Source: a virus. Taken from it: a stretch of 64,000 nucleotides of DNA. The notes under the pieces are model-generated. The model saw only the letters and a program-made list of their open reading frames with translations, was not told the DNA's origin and ran no database searches. The translations under genes were made by a program, and so were the position numbers. This document shows positions 34,810-44,572 of this stretch, one piece after another (the first letter of the stretch is position 1; each line of letters begins with the position of its first letter). Location: the IMG/VR virus record IMGVR_UViG_3300048997_000225, positions 1-64,000 of that record, one strand, 5' to 3'.

Positions 34810-35094
34810 ATGGCAGACAATAATCTTACTGATGGAGAAATGGATGATTTTCGTCAAAGAGCTTTTTTGATGCCTGATGATGAAATAGCGGAATTATTGG
34901 AGGAACTTGCTAAACGAGAACTCGGGCTTTTGGAATCTGACTCCATACAGCAAAATGAAGATTTCCGACAGCGAGTATTAAATAATGCGGCGGCTCTCAC
35001 TGCGGCGGCTGAAAGATTTCATCCAAAAGGTTGGAACATCAACCAAGTCCAAACAGAGAAGCCAGGAACTGAAACTTCTGAGGATGAACTTTAG
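34810..35094 (+). CDS. Small acidic helical protein
   Basis: A 94-aa acidic protein, mainly helical (DEIAELLEELAKRELGLL). It is divergent from dcd and overlaps the 3' end of the polymerase gene by 56 bp. The function is unknown. Confidence 0.45.
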   Translation: MADNNLTDGEMDDFRQRAFLMPDDEIAELLEELAKRELGLLESDSIQQNEDFRQRVLNNAAALTAAAERFHPKGWNINQVQTEKPGTETSEDEL

Positions 35095-37945
35095 TCCCGA
35101 TAGACTCTGGAATCAAAATTTGACCTTTTAAATTCATTACGCGCAATGGAACATTTCCTTCAGCTAAAGTGCATACGGCTTTAAGCTTCCTTACCGTATC
35201 TTTTGAAGGGACAGCTTTAAATACCCATCTTAAGATCGCTCCTTCATCGGAAGCGGCAGTGATAACATCTGTGATTTCTGGTTTAACTGAACTGGAAGCA
35301 TCACTGGATTCTGGGATTGAATCTGTAGATGCACCAATATCAATTGATTCTATCTCAGATTCTGTTGATAAAACAGTAGTATCAAGCGAGATATCATCGA
35401 GGTTTAAATCAGAAACAGATATTGATGATTCGGATTGAATGGATATTGAATCTTGAGATATATTTTTAGAATCCGAAGAATTCTCCGATACTAATATCGG
35501 ACTAATATCTTGGATTATAACCGAAGGGGTAGAAGCGCTAGAAGCGCTAGAAGTTGGCATCTCCCACGGAATCCCTTCAAGTTGAGCTTGTTTAATAATA
35601 TCGCTTTGAGCCGGAGTCAGGCGCCAAATATATGACTCCAGAAAATCTGGGATTTTCTGATAAATCCGACCATCTGCAAAATATTGGTCTTTCTTCAATT
35701 TTCCTTTATAACTCCCGTCCGAATCCAAGTCCTTGGGATCGGGTTTTTTACCGTCAACCATTGCGAAATAATCGAATCGTGCTCGCCAATGAATATCAAT
35801 ACCGGGTTCGGTCTCGAGCGGCACCATCCATTGTTTACCATGGACTTTAGGGAGTCGCCATGGCGTGGTCATCCATTCATCCAATTTTCGGACAATTTCC
35901 ATTAAATATTCAGGCTTAATCTCAAATACTACTTCATCATGCACAGTCAATACATATCGAACTCTATCTTTCCATCCCAATTTACGAAGTTGTTTATCAA
36001 CATAACACATCGCTAGCTTCAGAATATCTGCTGAAGTAGCTTGAATCGTATAATTGATGGCGCAGCGTTCTGCTTTTTTCTGGATAGCCCTGATTGGAGA
36101 ATCAATAGTTGGGATAGGAATACGGCGACCAAATGCCGTGTAAATGCATTTATGTTTATGTGCAAATTTCTTTTGATGTTCAACATATCCCATGAGTACA
36201 GGTAAGCCGGATCGCATGTTTTCCATATGCCGGCCCCCATCTTCAATGGAACATCCAACATTCCGTGATATCGCTCCTGCACCCCCACCATAAATAATTG
36301 CAAAATTACTGCGTTTCCCACGATTTCGTTCGTCTTTACTAATTTCGGATTTTTCGTATAAAATCCTGGCAGTAATGGAATGCACATCTCCGTCTTTGTG
36401 CAGAAAAGATTCTGCCCACAGGGGATCGCCTGACATATTAGTAATCACTCGGAGTTCTTCCCCAGAATAATCAATTTTTACCAAAACCCAACCAGGACGG
36501 GGGATGATTACAGTCCTGATTTGTTTAAATAACTCTGGTTTATCATCATCTGAATCGCGTGGAATACCTTGAAAATTGACACCTGAGTATCCGTTTTCGA
36601 TTTTATCTGCTTTACAAGATAATCTTGTTGTATCAGTCCCCATTTGATTAAATGATGGACGTACGTCTCCGTATTTATCATGAGATTGGAAAAGCTTCTC
36701 TATATAAGATCCTTTCATTTTCTCATAATGTCTATATTCTAGAATGAGTTCAAAAATACTCTCGGCTTTAGGCTCTCCATCGGAGACTTCGCGTTTATGA
36801 AGGAATTTGCTGCCATAATGGCGATGCAATGCCTTCATAATTTCATCTTTCAATGAATATGTTTTCTCTTTCCCGTCTCCATCATCTTCATCTGAATCCG
36901 AAGAATCATTATCGAATGATCCTCCATCACCCATTCCAAACATGTCTTGAATGGGCTTTAATTTTATTCCTTCTTGATCTGTAAATAACGCGTCCGAAAG
37001 CTGCGAAGCGGAACCAACATTAAGTGATCGCCATTTGCCGGTTTTGCCAGTTTTAGATTCAATTATGCTCCGAACAATATCACCAGTTTGTTGTAATGCA
37101 GTTTTACATTCTTCATATAATTGAGTGACTCTAGTCACATCAGTATGGACGCGATTGCGTTCCATTTCTCGCATGATGTTACAAAATGATCTTTCGATAT
37201 CATAGATCTTTTCGTAACCTTTGAGCCGTTCAACTAATGCAAAGTATAATTTATATGTAAAAATCCCATCGGAGCAACCGTATTCGAGACCCTCGCGTGG
37301 ATGCAGTAATGAGAAGTTATAACGTTGTTTTTGGCGCTGGAGTTGTTCCTTCTTCTCATCTGTGAACAGTTCGTCGATTTCTATCATATCGACTCCAAAC
37401 AATTGTTTGGAGAGTGGTTTTAAACCAGCCGGAGAACTTTTCAAAGGGCTGATGACTTTAGCCATCAACATAGTATCTTCAAATTGCGAAAGCTTCCAGT
37501 ATTCACGACCAACCAATGGCATGATGAATTCTGCGTCGAATTTTTTGTTATGGAAAATGATTCGACAATTATCAACTAATCGAGTGAGTTCATCCCAAGC
37601 TGGATCCCATGCCAAATTCCCGGAATCTTCAGGTTCATGAGATAATGGAATATAATATCCATTAACCCCATCAAAAGATATGCAAACTCCAACTACTCTA
37701 TCAATTGTGCGGATCCCATTGCGAGTGACGATTCCATCATCAAAAAACTCATCCGAGTAAATTCTGTTATCTACTCCAGTAGTTTCCGTGTCGAGTGAAC
37801 AAATCCCTTTTTTGATGCATATACTAACAAGCCTTTGTAATTCTTCTATAGAATTTATTAAATGGAATTTATAGTCTTTAAACCATTCTCTATGAATGGT
37901 AACTCGATCGTCCATCTGACGGAGAGTTGTTAGTATGTTTAACAT
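35039..37945 (-). CDS. polA: DNA polymerase I-like (family A) replicative polymerase
   Basis: A 968-aa polymerase. The 3'-5' exonuclease starts at SLDTETTG (Asp52, Glu54). Polymerase motif A (VKIDYSGEELR) is near 490, motif B (RSNFAIIYGGGAG) near 545 and motif C (TVHDEVVFE) near 668. There is no 5' nuclease domain. Odd features are an acidic insert near 345-360 and a Ser/Asp-rich linker (about 795-898) leading to a 65-residue C-terminal domain. ATG 37945 gives MLNILTTLRQ; ATG 37915 (MDDRVTI) may be the ancestral start, because the same sequence begins the endonuclease gene upstream. It is expected to be the phage replicase. Confidence 0.95.
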   Translation of the reverse strand: MLNILTTLRQMDDRVTIHREWFKDYKFHLINSIEELQRLVSICIKKGICSLDTETTGVDNRIYSDEFFDDGIVTRNGIRTIDRVVGVCISFDGVNGYYIPLSHEPEDSGNLAWDPAWDELTRLVDNCRIIFHNKKFDAEFIMPLVGREYWKLSQFEDTMLMAKVISPLKSSPAGLKPLSKQLFGVDMIEIDELFTDEKKEQLQRQKQRYNFSLLHPREGLEYGCSDGIFTYKLYFALVERLKGYEKIYDIERSFCNIMREMERNRVHTDVTRVTQLYEECKTALQQTGDIVRSIIESKTGKTGKWRSLNVGSASQLSDALFTDQEGIKLKPIQDMFGMGDGGSFDNDSSDSDEDDGDGKEKTYSLKDEIMKALHRHYGSKFLHKREVSDGEPKAESIFELILEYRHYEKMKGSYIEKLFQSHDKYGDVRPSFNQMGTDTTRLSCKADKIENGYSGVNFQGIPRDSDDDKPELFKQIRTVIIPRPGWVLVKIDYSGEELRVITNMSGDPLWAESFLHKDGDVHSITARILYEKSEISKDERNRGKRSNFAIIYGGGAGAISRNVGCSIEDGGRHMENMRSGLPVLMGYVEHQKKFAHKHKCIYTAFGRRIPIPTIDSPIRAIQKKAERCAINYTIQATSADILKLAMCYVDKQLRKLGWKDRVRYVLTVHDEVVFEIKPEYLMEIVRKLDEWMTTPWRLPKVHGKQWMVPLETEPGIDIHWRARFDYFAMVDGKKPDPKDLDSDGSYKGKLKKDQYFADGRIYQKIPDFLESYIWRLTPAQSDIIKQAQLEGIPWEMPTSSASSASTPSVIIQDISPILVSENSSDSKNISQDSISIQSESSISVSDLNLDDISLDTTVLSTESEIESIDIGASTDSIPESSDASSSVKPEITDVITAASDEGAILRWVFKAVPSKDTVRKLKAVCTLAEGNVPLRVMNLKGQILIPESIGTKVHPQKFQFLASLFGLG
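37896..37924. repeat. 29-bp direct repeat, polymerase copy
   Basis: This copy starts ATGGTAACTC and matches 39359-39387 in 27 of 29 positions. It covers the internal MDDRVTI start of the polymerase. The two copies flank the endonuclease-like gene. Confidence 0.9.
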
Positions 37946-39378
37946 GAACTAATCATACAACGGAGTTTCTCGATGATTGCTTTTTTAGATAATTTCAATT
38001 CTTGTTCCGTAATGGTTAAGAATTGATAGCCATTCTTTTGCGCCACAAGAGATTTCCTTTCATCCAAGTTCTTTGCACCTGGCTTATCATGCCACCACTT
38101 ACCATTATATTCTATTAATAAATTTGCTTCAGGAACAAACAGATCATACGCATAACCATCCACTTTATGTTCAAAATATGATTTATATCCTAAATCAGAA
38201 ATAATGGACGCTAAATCACAATTCTTGGATGAAATACGCCATGATGTACATCCGCATGTTAGAGATAATCCTCGTTTTATATCGCTGAATCTTGGGAAAT
38301 ATATATTCTGACAGGCTGGACATATAGCGGCGGCAGGTTTATGATTATAAATCATAGATTCAAGGAAAGATATACCATCTTGTGGTATATCTTGAGTTTG
38401 AATTTTCCCACTCAAAGAACATAATTTATCTTTGTTTCTTATATACCATCCATATATGAGATGACGACATGCTCCACATGTTTTGGTTCGTCCGGCTGAT
38501 ATGGATTTTAGACTTATTGATTTAGATAGTTCACATCGACACTGGAACAAAAGTTTTTGTCTGTCCCATTTACTTATTTCTATATCAGATCCAAGATATA
38601 TGAACCCATTATAAGAATCACCAGTTTTTAAACAAATATAACTACATTTTCCACACCCATTAGCTGTTTGAGCATGACATACTTTCATTAATTTAAGTTT
38701 CCCGCATTTGCACATAAATGGCAGGATTTTATGACTACCGTAGCTTGTTATTATGGATTGACCGATATATCTAAATTCATTAATTGAGTCGCCCGGATTG
38801 AGAGTCAATTTATTGCATGAACCACATGTTACATTATGTCTTAATGTAACATTATTCATACTAATTTTCTTCTCTTTACCACAAGAACATTTGAATAATA
38901 ATTTGGTTGCACTATTAATTTGGATTTCCACAGGTTTTTTTCCAACATAGGAAAATCCCATATATTGTTGTCCAGAGATAAGATTTATGGAATTGCAAGA
39001 CCTGCATCGAACAGTTGATTCCCGTGTAACTGAATCCACTCTTATTGATTTAATTTTCCCGCATTGACATTTAAACAATTTTTTGCATGGTGTATTAGGG
39101 GATACAAATCCATCATCACCCATATATACAAAATTATGATATATTTCCCCATGTTTCAAGAAAATTTTCCTACAATCACCACATGTTTTGGATTTCCTGA
39201 TGGTGATTTGAGAAATATATATTTCTTTTAAATTCCCGCATTGACATTCAAAAAGGATTTTTCGCATGGCTCTGGGGCCAATCGATATCGGGGGTCCTCG
39301 ATAAACGAATCCAAAATAAATGGTTCCGGGAATAAGATTAATTTTCATGTACTCAATGATGGTAACTCTATCGTCCAT
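37939..39378 (-). CDS. Homing-endonuclease-like protein with five zinc repeats and Vsr-like nuclease end
   Basis: A 479-aa protein. Residues 1-300 contain five units of about 50-55 residues, each with a GxxYxxFxYxG segment, a CxCG pair (FKCQCG, FKCSCG, FMCKCG) and a CxxC pair (CGDC, CRSC, CGSC). A degenerate CPAC...CGC unit follows. The C-terminal part (about 400-479) resembles Vsr/PD-(D/E)xK nucleases: YDLFVPEANLLIEYNGKWWH, then a helix and FLTITEQEL. Zinc DNA-binding modules plus a Vsr-like nuclease suggest a free-standing homing endonuclease. It starts with a copy of the polymerase start (MDDRVTI) and ends overlapping the polymerase ATG. Confidence 0.72.
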   Translation of the reverse strand: MDDRVTIIEYMKINLIPGTIYFGFVYRGPPISIGPRAMRKILFECQCGNLKEIYISQITIRKSKTCGDCRKIFLKHGEIYHNFVYMGDDGFVSPNTPCKKLFKCQCGKIKSIRVDSVTRESTVRCRSCNSINLISGQQYMGFSYVGKKPVEIQINSATKLLFKCSCGKEKKISMNNVTLRHNVTCGSCNKLTLNPGDSINEFRYIGQSIITSYGSHKILPFMCKCGKLKLMKVCHAQTANGCGKCSYICLKTGDSYNGFIYLGSDIEISKWDRQKLLFQCRCELSKSISLKSISAGRTKTCGACRHLIYGWYIRNKDKLCSLSGKIQTQDIPQDGISFLESMIYNHKPAAAICPACQNIYFPRFSDIKRGLSLTCGCTSWRISSKNCDLASIISDLGYKSYFEHKVDGYAYDLFVPEANLLIEYNGKWWHDKPGAKNLDERKSLVAQKNGYQFLTITEQELKLSKKAIIEKLRCMISSC

Positions 39379-39387
39379 CTGACGAAG
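39359..39387. repeat. 29-bp direct repeat, endonuclease copy
   Basis: This copy provides the start codon and first seven codons of the endonuclease-like gene and matches 37896-37924 in 27 of 29 positions. It could be a target duplication or a homologous arm left by insertion. Confidence 0.9.
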
Positions 39388-39467
39388 TACGGCGAGCAGT
39401 ATGATGGATCAGTACCCCCAGTCCAGTTAATATGTTATTTTGATCGTACAATTGTAAATTGAATATT

Positions 39468-40529
39468 ATGGACGAAAATCCCTACCATATCTTGGGAGTT
39501 GATAGATCAGCCACCAATGCAGAAATTAAAAAAGCGTTCCGGAGTTTATCATTAAAATATCATCCTGATAAACATAATGGCGACAAAGCGATTGAAAACC
39601 TGTTTAAACAAATTTTGCAAGCATATCAAATTTTGAACGATCCTGAAAAAAAGAAAAAATTTGATAAATCACATCCAAGCCACACATTTTCTGATGTAGA
39701 ATATATGACTAAAGATTATGTCGAACAAATCCTATATCAAACAGGAAGTTCGCAGCATAATAAAAAATCCACAGGGAACCCCAGCACGTATGATTCTACA
39801 ACCAGTATTCACAACGAATCTGGAGGAGATATTGAGCAAGAACTTACGATAACTATTGAAGAATCAATAAGCGGGACAAATCGAGACATCATAACGATGG
39901 GCGGAGACATAATTTGTTGCCTATGTCATGGAAGTCGTAAGGTACCTAATACAACAGTATATCCATGTTCCAGATGTTCAGGGTCTGGAACAACAATAAA
40001 TGTGGTTGGTCAACATGTAACATGTATAATTTGCAAAGGCCATGGTGATTTCCCAATGGTTCCATGTACTCGTTGCAATGGATGGGGTAAAATTCCGTCT
40101 GAAAAGATCGCAAGAATAAGAATCCCTGCTGGTATAGAAGAAAATCAAATACTACGTTTCCGCGGACATGGACATCGGTCAATCAATAGATCTCCTGGAG
40201 ATCTATTGATTACCGTAAGATTCGCTTTACATAATAAATATGTAAAAAACGGATTTGATTTGCATTGTAATTTAGAAATACCCCTTATAAAAGCAATGCA
40301 AAGAGAAGACATGATAATCCAGTCCATTACTGATGATATGATTATGATAGGGATGCCAGATATATTCCAACCCGGAATTACAACCACCAAAATAATAGGG
40401 AAAGGCCTGAAATCCAATAAAGGACAATGCGGTGATTTAATAATCCAATGGAATGTAAAAATCCCGTGCGTTAAAACTGAAAAGTCTAAATTATTATTGC
40501 AACTATTGATGGCTGAAGTTGAAGAATAA
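39468..40529 (+). CDS. dnaJ: DnaJ co-chaperone
   Basis: A 353-aa full-length DnaJ. The J-domain is at residues 4-70 with the HPD motif in LKYHPDKHNGD near 30-40. A linker of about 50 residues follows. The zinc-finger region (about 145-210) has four C-x-x-C-x-G-x-G-type repeats (CLCHGSRK, CSRCSGSG, CIICKGHG, CTRCNGWG), and C-terminal client-binding domains (about 215-345) follow. It should recruit host DnaK, possibly for replisome remodelling or capsid assembly. ATG 39468 lies three codons after TTG 39459. It is divergent from the endonuclease gene. A 31-bp palindrome lies in the C-terminal domain. Confidence 0.93.
   Translation: MDENPYHILGVDRSATNAEIKKAFRSLSLKYHPDKHNGDKAIENLFKQILQAYQILNDPEKKKKFDKSHPSHTFSDVEYMTKDYVEQILYQTGSSQHNKKSTGNPSTYDSTTSIHNESGGDIEQELTITIEESISGTNRDIITMGGDIICCLCHGSRKVPNTTVYPCSRCSGSGTTINVVGQHVTCIICKGHGDFPMVPCTRCNGWGKIPSEKIARIRIPAGIEENQILRFRGHGHRSINRSPGDLLITVRFALHNKYVKNGFDLHCNLEIPLIKAMQREDMIIQSITDDMIMIGMPDIFQPGITTTKIIGKGLKSNKGQCGDLIIQWNVKIPCVKTEKSKLLLQLLMAEVEE
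40181..40211. repeat. 31-bp palindrome inside dnaJ
   Basis: Arms of 15 nt pair perfectly around one central base. It encodes SINRSPGDLLI, a normal DnaJ segment (family consensus near RSPGDLLI), so the palindrome exists without disrupting the protein. Confidence 0.95.
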
Positions 40530-41597: not shown

Positions 41598-41753
41598 TCA
41601 TTTTCTGATAGACTTGGACTTTGGTAATACAATAACTTCGACGGGTTTACCTCGAGTGGATTGTATAACTCGGTCTGCAGTTAATAAAGTTGTATGTTTC
41701 GGACTAGATTTATTGGACTCTAAGGATGGGAGTCCAAGATACTTCTTCTTCAT
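41598..41753 (-). CDS. Small basic protein between helicase and primase genes
   Basis: A 51-aa open frame whose ATG overlaps the dnaB stop (TAATG) and whose stop abuts the primase ATG. It is Lys/Arg/Ser-rich (MKKKYLGLPSLESN at the start, LPKSKSIRK at the end). The tight fit in the operon argues that it is real. The function is unknown. Confidence 0.55.
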   Translation of the reverse strand: MKKKYLGLPSLESNKSSPKHTTLLTADRVIQSTRGKPVEVIVLPKSKSIRK

Positions 41754-44572
41754 TATGCTGCTTCTATAATATCGTCAATTCCAAGGGTAATTTGCCTAGC
41801 CGCAGATACCAATTGATCTGTATCCATATCTAACATTCCAGATTCAATGGCCCGCATACGCCGAGATTGCCATAAAATTTTACCTATCATGCGATCAAAT
41901 GGTGGGTTGTCTCGATTTTTGAGACAACCCAAATAAAATTTGCCTTCTTTTCGCAAATTATCATTTAAGTAGGTATATGTAATCACATCTGCTGATTTCT
42001 CACAGTTATGAGATAAGAATCCGCCAGTACAATACTCATGATCGCCTGTGACTTCTAAGTCCCATACCTTTTCATCAGTATATTCCTGGATTCCAGTCAC
42101 TGCAATAAATCGTGTAGTATCAAACCAATTTTTTAAAATATCATAATCATTATTAGTGCCAGCAATCATAGATAGCGTATCAATAATTTCTTGAATGCAT
42201 CCGGTCGTCAATGGTTCGTTATATTCAATATATCTTCCGATTGAATATCGGACTTTTCGAGACCAAGTAATACTTGAATATTCATCGCATAATCTTTTGG
42301 CAATGGAACCTAACGGCCATTGTGTGAAATCACCAGCCTTTTCTGAATCTTGCATGTGATTTACAATTTCACATAATCTTTGTTGTTTATATGGCTCAGT
42401 GAACCCAATTAAATCAAGAAATAGACTCCGAGATTCTCGAGAACGGATTCGTAACACCCAAGAAGGAAATAAATGATCATCCAATTTATTCCACTTCCAA
42501 TATAATGTTGAGTCTATCCCTAAATTAGATAGTAATAATTGGATTTGTCGCAATGTTTTTTCATTTTCGGCTTTCTGATTTACCGATATAATTCCTTGAT
42601 TATTGATACGTCCATTAGTATCAAAAAAGCCTTTCAGAAATGATACTATCATATTCCTTGGAGCAGATAATATACAATCCGGGAGTCCGGGATTTCTATC
42701 TATTCCGACGTCGTTAAACCATCTTGATAAAGCTTTATCAAGATGGTTTAAGTCTGTTGTAGATGATATAAAAGGTGGTTGAGCCACATAAAATGGACTA
42801 CCAAATGAATTTTCAAGAGAATTCTGTAATTTATCCAAAACATGAACTTCGTTGCGATTTAGTATAAATCCGATTAATGAAATGATATTAGTGTGTTTGC
42901 CATCTCCATAGAAAGCTCCTATGATATAGGATAGATCTTCCGTGAGATATTCAGGGACTCTTAGTTGAATCCCGTTCCCCATTATTGATTTTTCTCCTTT
43001 ACCAAAATCTAATTCTGGTAATCGAATCGAATCGACAGGGAATGGAGAAGTCCCGAAATCCGAAATCAAAAACATTCCGGGTTGGAGATCTTTCACATAT
43101 ATCCATTCTTCTTGACCATCACGCATAACTCGCAATCTATGCGAAGATGTTAGTCTGCATTCAATTCCTCTATCAGTTGTTACTCTAAACGTTCGCTTTG
43201 CTCCATTATCATATTTTCCGATCACGCCTTTCCAACCAGTTTTGCTCCATACTAAATCTTCACCTGGTTGAATATTTTCAATAGGAACAAGACCACGTTG
43301 GGTTTTTATCAATGTTCCTTCAGCACAGCATTCATTGGCGTAGGAAATTGCGGATATGTCATATCTCCCATCATTCTTATCAGCTCTCAATTTACCTTGT
43401 CGATTCATTTGAAATAATGCAAGCACTGGGACCGATCGACCTCGGCCGAAATTGAGAGCCATGAGTCTACCATCTCGGACAACATCATTTAAGCTGGATA
43501 CGGTATCCGTGTAACGACGTTTAGTTTTCACAAGTCCGAGATGATCAATAACTATTCCATCACATCCGTATTTGTTATGGAACATTTCAGCTTTGCGCCG
43601 AATATCTTCGATAGAAACATGGTCTGATGGCCGCCAAATATAAGGTTTCCCTCTGGCAGTCGCTTTGAAATCTTGAGCTACGATTTTAAAACGCTCCCGA
43701 TTTCTGGGAGAAAGCTCGCCATCGCGAACTTGTCTGTAATCCAATCCTGTATATCCGTCTTCACTATTCCATTCGGTTACAAATTTACCATGCGAAGAAT
43801 GTATTACATACAGTTGTCGGCGAAGTTGCGAATATGGCATTTCCAAAATGGCATAAAAAATATTCTTGCCATATACCATAATGTTGTTATACATATAATT
43901 CAATGACAAGGAAGTCTTAAGTTCACCTGGAAAAGCGCAATGGATCCAATATTCGCCTTTACGATGACCTTTACAAACTGCGTCAATTGGTTCTAGTCCA
44001 AATAAATTTCTATGCGAATATTTATTGGTCTTCTCAATGATGTCATATTCATTTATGATTTCATCTGCATCTTCTGATGAAACGCCTTCGAGTTTCTCGC
44101 CACCTTCTACCCAAGCAAATTCATGGAGCCGTTCATATAGAAAGTTAACTGCATCAGCCGCGCCACGTAAGCTGATTTTCTTCCCAAAACCTGCATCAAG
44201 CACACGCCCATGTTCAGCAATCGAAGAAGCATCTCTGCACAACAAAATCATGCGCTTGGTTTGTTGTTGTTCTTGTTCATGGCGAAGAATCGATAGATAG
44301 TTGGTACGAATATAAAATTGTGATTTGGAAATCTCAGTCAGTCGTTCTACAGTCTCAATATCATCTAATTTTTCAAAATAATCTTTGGCTAACCCCATAT
44401 CGGGCGGAGCCGACATTTGATTATAAAATGTCTCCAAATATTTATGGATTTTTTGATTTTCTTCGGTATAATACTCAAGCGGATATTCTTGTAATTTCAA
44501 CCAATTATTATATGCTTCTTCAGTTTCCGGTTGCCCACCGACTTGGAAGACGCTTCTTAAGATGCGATCCAT
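41753..44572 (-). CDS. dnaB: Replicative DNA helicase DnaB-like, with intein
   Basis: A 939-aa precursor; the 442-aa intein (42005-43330) leaves a helicase of about 497 aa. The N-terminal domain is helical. The RecA-like domain has a Walker A that reads PGELKTS instead of GxGKS/T, a Walker B-like GIVIDHLGLV and an LALFQMNRQGKL strand, as in DnaB-type helicases. The intein sits within the conserved ISYANE/CEKSADV segment near the C-terminus of the helicase core. The gene follows the loader-like gene in frame after TAA-GTC. It unwinds the fork ahead of the polymerase. Confidence 0.88.
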   Translation of the reverse strand: MDRILRSVFQVGGQPETEEAYNNWLKLQEYPLEYYTEENQKIHKYLETFYNQMSAPPDMGLAKDYFEKLDDIETVERLTEISKSQFYIRTNYLSILRHEQEQQQTKRMILLCRDASSIAEHGRVLDAGFGKKISLRGAADAVNFLYERLHEFAWVEGGEKLEGVSSEDADEIINEYDIIEKTNKYSHRNLFGLEPIDAVCKGHRKGEYWIHCAFPGELKTSLSLNYMYNNIMVYGKNIFYAILEMPYSQLRRQLYVIHSSHGKFVTEWNSEDGYTGLDYRQVRDGELSPRNRERFKIVAQDFKATARGKPYIWRPSDHVSIEDIRRKAEMFHNKYGCDGIVIDHLGLVKTKRRYTDTVSSLNDVVRDGRLMALNFGRGRSVPVLALFQMNRQGKLRADKNDGRYDISAISYANECCAEGTLIKTQRGLVPIENIQPGEDLVWSKTGWKGVIGKYDNGAKRTFRVTTDRGIECRLTSSHRLRVMRDGQEEWIYVKDLQPGMFLISDFGTSPFPVDSIRLPELDFGKGEKSIMGNGIQLRVPEYLTEDLSYIIGAFYGDGKHTNIISLIGFILNRNEVHVLDKLQNSLENSFGSPFYVAQPPFISSTTDLNHLDKALSRWFNDVGIDRNPGLPDCILSAPRNMIVSFLKGFFDTNGRINNQGIISVNQKAENEKTLRQIQLLLSNLGIDSTLYWKWNKLDDHLFPSWVLRIRSRESRSLFLDLIGFTEPYKQQRLCEIVNHMQDSEKAGDFTQWPLGSIAKRLCDEYSSITWSRKVRYSIGRYIEYNEPLTTGCIQEIIDTLSMIAGTNNDYDILKNWFDTTRFIAVTGIQEYTDEKVWDLEVTGDHEYCTGGFLSHNCEKSADVITYTYLNDNLRKEGKFYLGCLKNRDNPPFDRMIGKILWQSRRMRAIESGMLDMDTDQLVSAARQITLGIDDIIEAA
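42005..43330 (-). other. Intein with LAGLIDADG endonuclease in the helicase
   Basis: This 442-residue insert starts with Cys1 of CCAEGTLIKT, has the splicing block TSSHRLRV, and ends SHN before Cys+1 of the extein (CEKSADV). Two LAGLIDADG-type motifs (YIIGAFYGDG and FLKGFFDTNG) lie in between, so the homing endonuclease domain appears intact. Both nucleophiles and the terminal Asn are present, so splicing should work. Confidence 0.9.
42714..42751. repeat. 38-bp perfect palindrome inside the intein
   Basis: Two 19-nt arms without spacer, TTAAACCATCTTGATAAAG and its complement, encode part of the segment before RWFNDVGIDRN. It is the longest perfect palindrome that I found in the window. Confidence 0.95.

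Follow-up and report, generated by a model that had tools for sequence, protein, structure and literature searches.

A Vsr-like nuclease gene probably inserted into the first codons of a phage DNA polymerase gene, with those codons repeated at the far junction

How could a nuclease gene enter the 5' end of a DNA polymerase gene and leave behind a polymerase that still reads as a complete protein? The question is raised by the window, the whole 64,000-nucleotide stretch of viral DNA that we analysed (positions 1 to 64,000 of the 132.5-kb IMG/VR record IMGVR_UViG_3300048997_000225), in which a nuclease ORF lies between two copies of a 29-bp direct repeat at the beginning of a polymerase gene (Table 1). 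The original prediction described a homing event in which the repeat carried the polymerase translation start, MDDRVTI, into both genes. On re-reading the sequence, the coordinates, strand, length and 27/29 identity that it gave for the repeat are exact, the reverse-strand nuclease ORF is as described, and the new upstream polymerase ATG at 37945 is present. The reading that we favour, with a probability of about 0.72, is that a free-standing, homing-type endonuclease gene was inserted into the first codons of the polymerase gene and that these codons were duplicated at the far junction. This keeps the predicted homing insertion at the polymerase 5' end, with an I-Bth0305I-type nuclease inserted and eight relatives empty at the site, and gives up the captured start.

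The repeat encodes the polymerase codons LRQMDDRVTI. In a tolerant search allowing up to three mismatches its two copies were the only pair in the window and in the whole record, no equally good pair occurred in shuffled versions of the window, and a pair this good lying no more than 3 kb apart would be expected by chance about 1e-5 times in 64 kb. Both mismatches are internal and synonymous (CTT/CTC and AGA/CGA), and the longest exact run shared by the copies is 15 bases. Outward extension of the repeat is not significant downstream (p ~0.18), and upstream there is none. A gapped extension that pairs ACCA-TCATTGAG with ACCATTCATAGAG, together with CATACT on the left, was likewise not significant and was rejected.

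Table 1. Features of the nuclease-polymerase locus in the window, and the N-terminal reading of the ten related polymerases
Feature	Position	Strand	Description
Nuclease ORF	37939..39378	minus	479 aa counted from the MDDR ATG; zinc-ribbon-like units precede a Vsr-like nuclease domain
Five zinc-ribbon-like units	38467..39342	minus	about residues 13-304; cysteine pattern and strand layout recur from unit to unit
Nuclease domain	37960..38214	minus	residues 389-473; MTES_1575 match; 3R3P by sequence and fold
Probable native nuclease start codon, Met11	39346..39348	minus	aligned with the sole possible start of the homologue L024
Repeat copy 1	39359..39387	minus	lies 5' of the nuclease ORF start and overlaps it; continues in frame as the nuclease
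Repeat copy 2	37896..37924	minus	within the intact polymerase ORF, close to its 5' end
Family A DNA polymerase with 3'-5' exonuclease domain	35039..37945	minus	968 aa as called
ATGTTAA	37945-37939	minus	polymerase ATG overlapping nuclease stop; read from the sequence
DnaJ-like gene	39459..40529	plus	divergent upstream neighbour; marks the ancestral left flank
L001 polymerase			reads MLLQQ-ADDR
L003 polymerase			reads MMHLQQ-MDDR
L005 polymerase			reads MLQLRQ-MDDR
L006 polymerase			reads MLLQQ-MDDR; GTG start
L035 polymerase			reads MLALQQ-TDDR; GTG start; closest relative, 65%
L036 polymerase			reads MFPLQT-MDDR
L037 polymerase			reads MFLQQ-ADDK; GTG start
L038 polymerase			reads MLLQR-MDDR
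L042 polymerase			reads MQLAQ-ADDR
L044 polymerase			reads MFKP-MDDK

Related phages show what the site looks like elsewhere. Ten distinct IMG/VR polymerases align almost end to end with that of the window, at 49-65% identity (L001, L003, L005, L006, L035, L036, L037, L038, L042 and L044, with L031, close kin of L006, counted together with it); the start of a distant polymerase, L007, was not alignable. Polymerase matches in phage GenBank were all below 60% identity, and no polymerase relatives were found in GTDB genomes. Copy 2 aligns with the N-termini of all ten relatives. A search for related phages that lack the insertion, proposed along with the original prediction, was fruitful: in eight of the ten, dnaJ and the polymerase gene are divergent and adjacent, with one repeat copy and no nuclease match between them, and none of the eight has two copies. 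In L005 the interval between dnaJ and the polymerase could, by eye, hold a small ORF. L044 gave no dnaJ match within the stretch examined, and in L006 and L031 the interval between dnaJ and the polymerase is occupied by a different nuclease from the same broad class, adjoining or overlapping the polymerase start. In none of the relatives examined does the polymerase beginning occur twice, side by side. Copy 1 lies at a similar distance from dnaJ as the polymerase start does where the site is empty, which probably puts copy 1 at the ancestral place, with the insertion after it. The same site is found empty in eight relatives and filled by another nuclease in L006 and L031, in a comparison of polymerases that, at 49-65% identity, are not close. 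Since no close relatives with and without the same insertion were found, the event itself is not bracketed. Three relatives have GIY-YIG-like ORFs, recognised by eye, directly after the polymerase gene (L006:6859-7935, L031:2727-3803 and L035:5415-6860), so both ends of the polymerase gene may attract such nuclease elements.

The inserted gene has the makings of a homing-type endonuclease. Its zinc-ribbon-like array, which gives a weak DUF4379 match, presumably binds DNA. The nuclease domain matches the Pfam families MTES_1575 and DUF559, both below their curated cut-offs, and its sole meaningful sequence relative in the PDB is I-Bth0305I (3R3P; phmmer E 9.3e-5, residues 392-463). An AlphaFold model built on a two-sequence alignment is weak (mean pLDDT 56) and was used only for the repeat layout, the N-terminal disorder and the nuclease fold; in a Foldseek search with it, 3R3P came first (probability 1.00, target TM 0.73) and Vsr was among the top matches. 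Of the candidate EDxHD-type catalytic residues, E403, D412 and H430 do not vary across 12 family members and E423 and D439 hardly do; at the positions aligned with the window nuclease, the 3R3P chain does not have all of these residues. The PHROG matches are to phage families named HNH or homing endonuclease. Phage GenBank records held neither a DNA match nor a protein match to the nuclease, and a single-protein search of IMG/VR with it returned no match. Related nuclease genes occur in several copies, at varied places, in the window's record and in three of the four related phages searched. A flanking repeat was present at one of the 18 related nuclease genes checked, the other 17 having none above shuffled sequence. 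The aligned relatives carry a further C-terminal domain, Mom/GNAT-like where tested, that the window nuclease lacks: it ends right after the nuclease domain, at the polymerase junction, and the missing domain could be a sign of gene decay. Three Vsr-like nucleases (L006:2492-4006, L024:2945-4732 and L021:3426-5264) are fused to such a C-terminal Mom/GNAT-like domain, which belongs to a DNA-modification family and could serve self-protection or binding.

Two further observations concern the window at large. A DnaB-like helicase ORF (41753-44572) holds an intein with a LAGLIDADG domain, and a tRNA with anticodon UUA (1624-1695) would read the stop codon UAA, despite which TAA terminates 36 of the 62 ORFs counted.

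Which start, if any, was duplicated depends on where the two genes begin. As read from sequence, all ten polymerase relatives have their start codon about 4-7 codons upstream of DDR (5-7 in a count that runs backwards from its first D), and in four of them (L001, L037, L042 and the closest, L035) Ala or Thr stands in place of the M of MDDR. Because of this, and going by the alignments, MDDRVTI is not the ancestral start of the polymerase family, and the repeated segment opens just inside the polymerase gene, at LRQ; the prediction that the duplication carries the polymerase translation start is thus not supported, as the relatives' starts do not align with MDDRVTI. MDDR with its Met is present in five of the ten, and an internal start at that Met may be used in some of these lineages. 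Neither copy in the window has an ATG, GTG or TTG where the relatives start. For copy 2 an ATG lies 11 codons ahead of DDR, where it overlaps the nuclease stop and is preceded by no Shine-Dalgarno site, and copy 1 has the MDDR ATG only.

The nuclease, too, probably has a start of its own. Its closest homologue by identity (39%), L024 in phage G002, starts MILHLEPDDVYKSFIYTG and has no other start codon before the upstream stop, and by eye this start lines up without gaps with MKINLIPGTIYFGFVYRG, residues 11-28 of the window nuclease. Residues 1-11 have pLDDT <50 in the model, and the repeated fold runs from residue 13 on. The nuclease's own start would then probably be the internal Met11, and MDDRVTIIEY, translated or not, has the look of an in-frame leader derived from the polymerase, because L024 starts at the residue aligned with Met11 and residues 1-11 are of low confidence. 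The L024 gene, too, sits on the 5' end of another gene, its first 12 bases being shared with the beginning of a divergent RuvC-like gene (L024:2219-2956). Neither the MDDR ATG nor the Met11 ATG of the nuclease has a clear Shine-Dalgarno site, though just a quarter or so of the genes checked have one. That the nuclease uses MDDRVTI as its own start is therefore not clearly the case, and we consider it unlikely that the duplication captured the polymerase translation start and that MDDRVTI is now the initiation site of both genes. The MDDRVTI ATG is indeed present and in frame in both copies, and the relatives' start codon is absent from both, so the MDDR ATGs may now serve in this lineage; against this stand the upstream starts of the relatives, the Ala or Thr at the Met in four of them, the Met11 start of the nearest nuclease homologue and the lack of a Shine-Dalgarno site before either MDDR ATG.

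Other explanations concern the repeat itself. It is very improbable that reads of two related phages were joined at a common sequence as an assembly or population artefact. The record is metagenomic and no identical second record was found, but the two differences are internal and leave no identical stretch longer than 15 bases, too short for the usual k-mer join, and the gene order on both sides agrees with that of the relatives. We find it hardly credible that the nuclease lies inside a self-splicing intron of the polymerase gene, with the repeat marking splice sites: the window gave no match to any Rfam intron family, a whole polymerase follows the nuclease stop and splicing needs no duplicated 5' end, even though I-Bth0305I is listed as a mobile intron protein and treated among group I intron endonucleases (PMC3943268). 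The repeat is compatible in origin both with a duplication made by repair and with the import of a foreign 5' end. The second is a version of our favoured reading, in which copy 2 came from another phage with the nuclease gene as a replacement polymerase 5' end, and we regard it as a tentative possibility, on the doubtful side. A replacement gene 3' end is documented in fungal mitochondria (PMC3630166), and the synonymous nature of both differences would lean slightly toward import; two differences are too few, however, no donor was found, and the 17 other nuclease family members are without such a flank.

In the insertion history that we favour, the Vsr-like nuclease gene would have been inserted just after the polymerase codons LRQMDDRVTI. 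What was once the left part of the polymerase gene would stay upstream as a relic leading in frame into the nuclease, and the same codons, found again at the 3' junction, would leave the polymerase a complete protein. The duplication may have arisen during insertion or arrived with the nuclease gene. The polymerase probably starts at the ATG overlapping the nuclease stop, and this overlap suggests coupled translation, by which the polymerase would be translated at ATGTTAA. The nuclease gene is in line with the polymerase, as is common for promoterless phage nuclease genes (PMC2988022); it may be transcribed from the polymerase's leader, and we infer that its product would cut the empty polymerase start. 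A more speculative model, and quite an unlikely one, is that the nuclease carries the polymerase's replacement 5' end in its homing cassette and that polymerase translation needs ribosomes finishing the nuclease at ATGTTAA. If that were true, a phage in which nuclease translation was lost would pay a penalty, giving the element an addiction-like hold on replication. The favoured history would mean that a selfish nuclease gene can enter an essential gene without breaking it, as the first codons recur after the insert. It also carries a warning for annotation, that an apparent ORF start can be borrowed from an invaded gene.

Several features of the locus are familiar from known systems. Like free-standing phage homing endonuclease genes, the window nuclease has no Rfam intron, its own stop and an intact polymerase downstream, and phage nuclease genes are often found near DNA polymerase (PMC10448857). 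In T4-like phages, free-standing nuclease genes are often without promoters and overlap neighbouring genes (PMC2988022), and mobA, mobE and seg43 are inserted in or near replication genes, which they can split (PMC2988022; PMC5009743). The window nuclease resembles these three in lying in or beside a replication gene and in an ORF overlap suggesting translational coupling, but mobA, mobE and seg43 split or neighbour the host gene, with no duplication of first codons in those accounts (PMC2988022; PMC5009743). An open-licence literature search found no phage case in which the 5' codons of an invaded gene are duplicated across a nuclease gene. With I-Bth0305I and the EDxHD endonucleases (3R3P; PMC3943268) it shares the nuclease domain, by sequence and fold, and the design of a long protein with an extended DNA-binding part; I-Bth0305I is listed as a mobile intron protein, whereas the window nuclease is free-standing and has five N-terminal zinc-ribbon-like units. 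The nearest parallel to the duplication comes from fungal mitochondria, where mobile ORFs insert with a duplicated carboxy-terminal gene end (Allomyces atp6; Glomus atp6, atp9, cox2 and nad3; PMC3630166). There, as in the window, an endonuclease ORF sits in an essential gene with the gene end on both sides, and the gene is whole. The fungal elements duplicate the carboxy-terminal end and encode LAGLIDADG or GIY-YIG enzymes, whereas the phage locus repeats 29 bp of a 5' end around a Vsr-like nuclease. In the fungal type the duplicated end is of foreign origin; in the phage locus, where the copies show only two differences, both synonymous, and no donor was found, it may be. The locus may thus be a phage, 5'-end counterpart to the gene-end duplications of fungal mitochondria.
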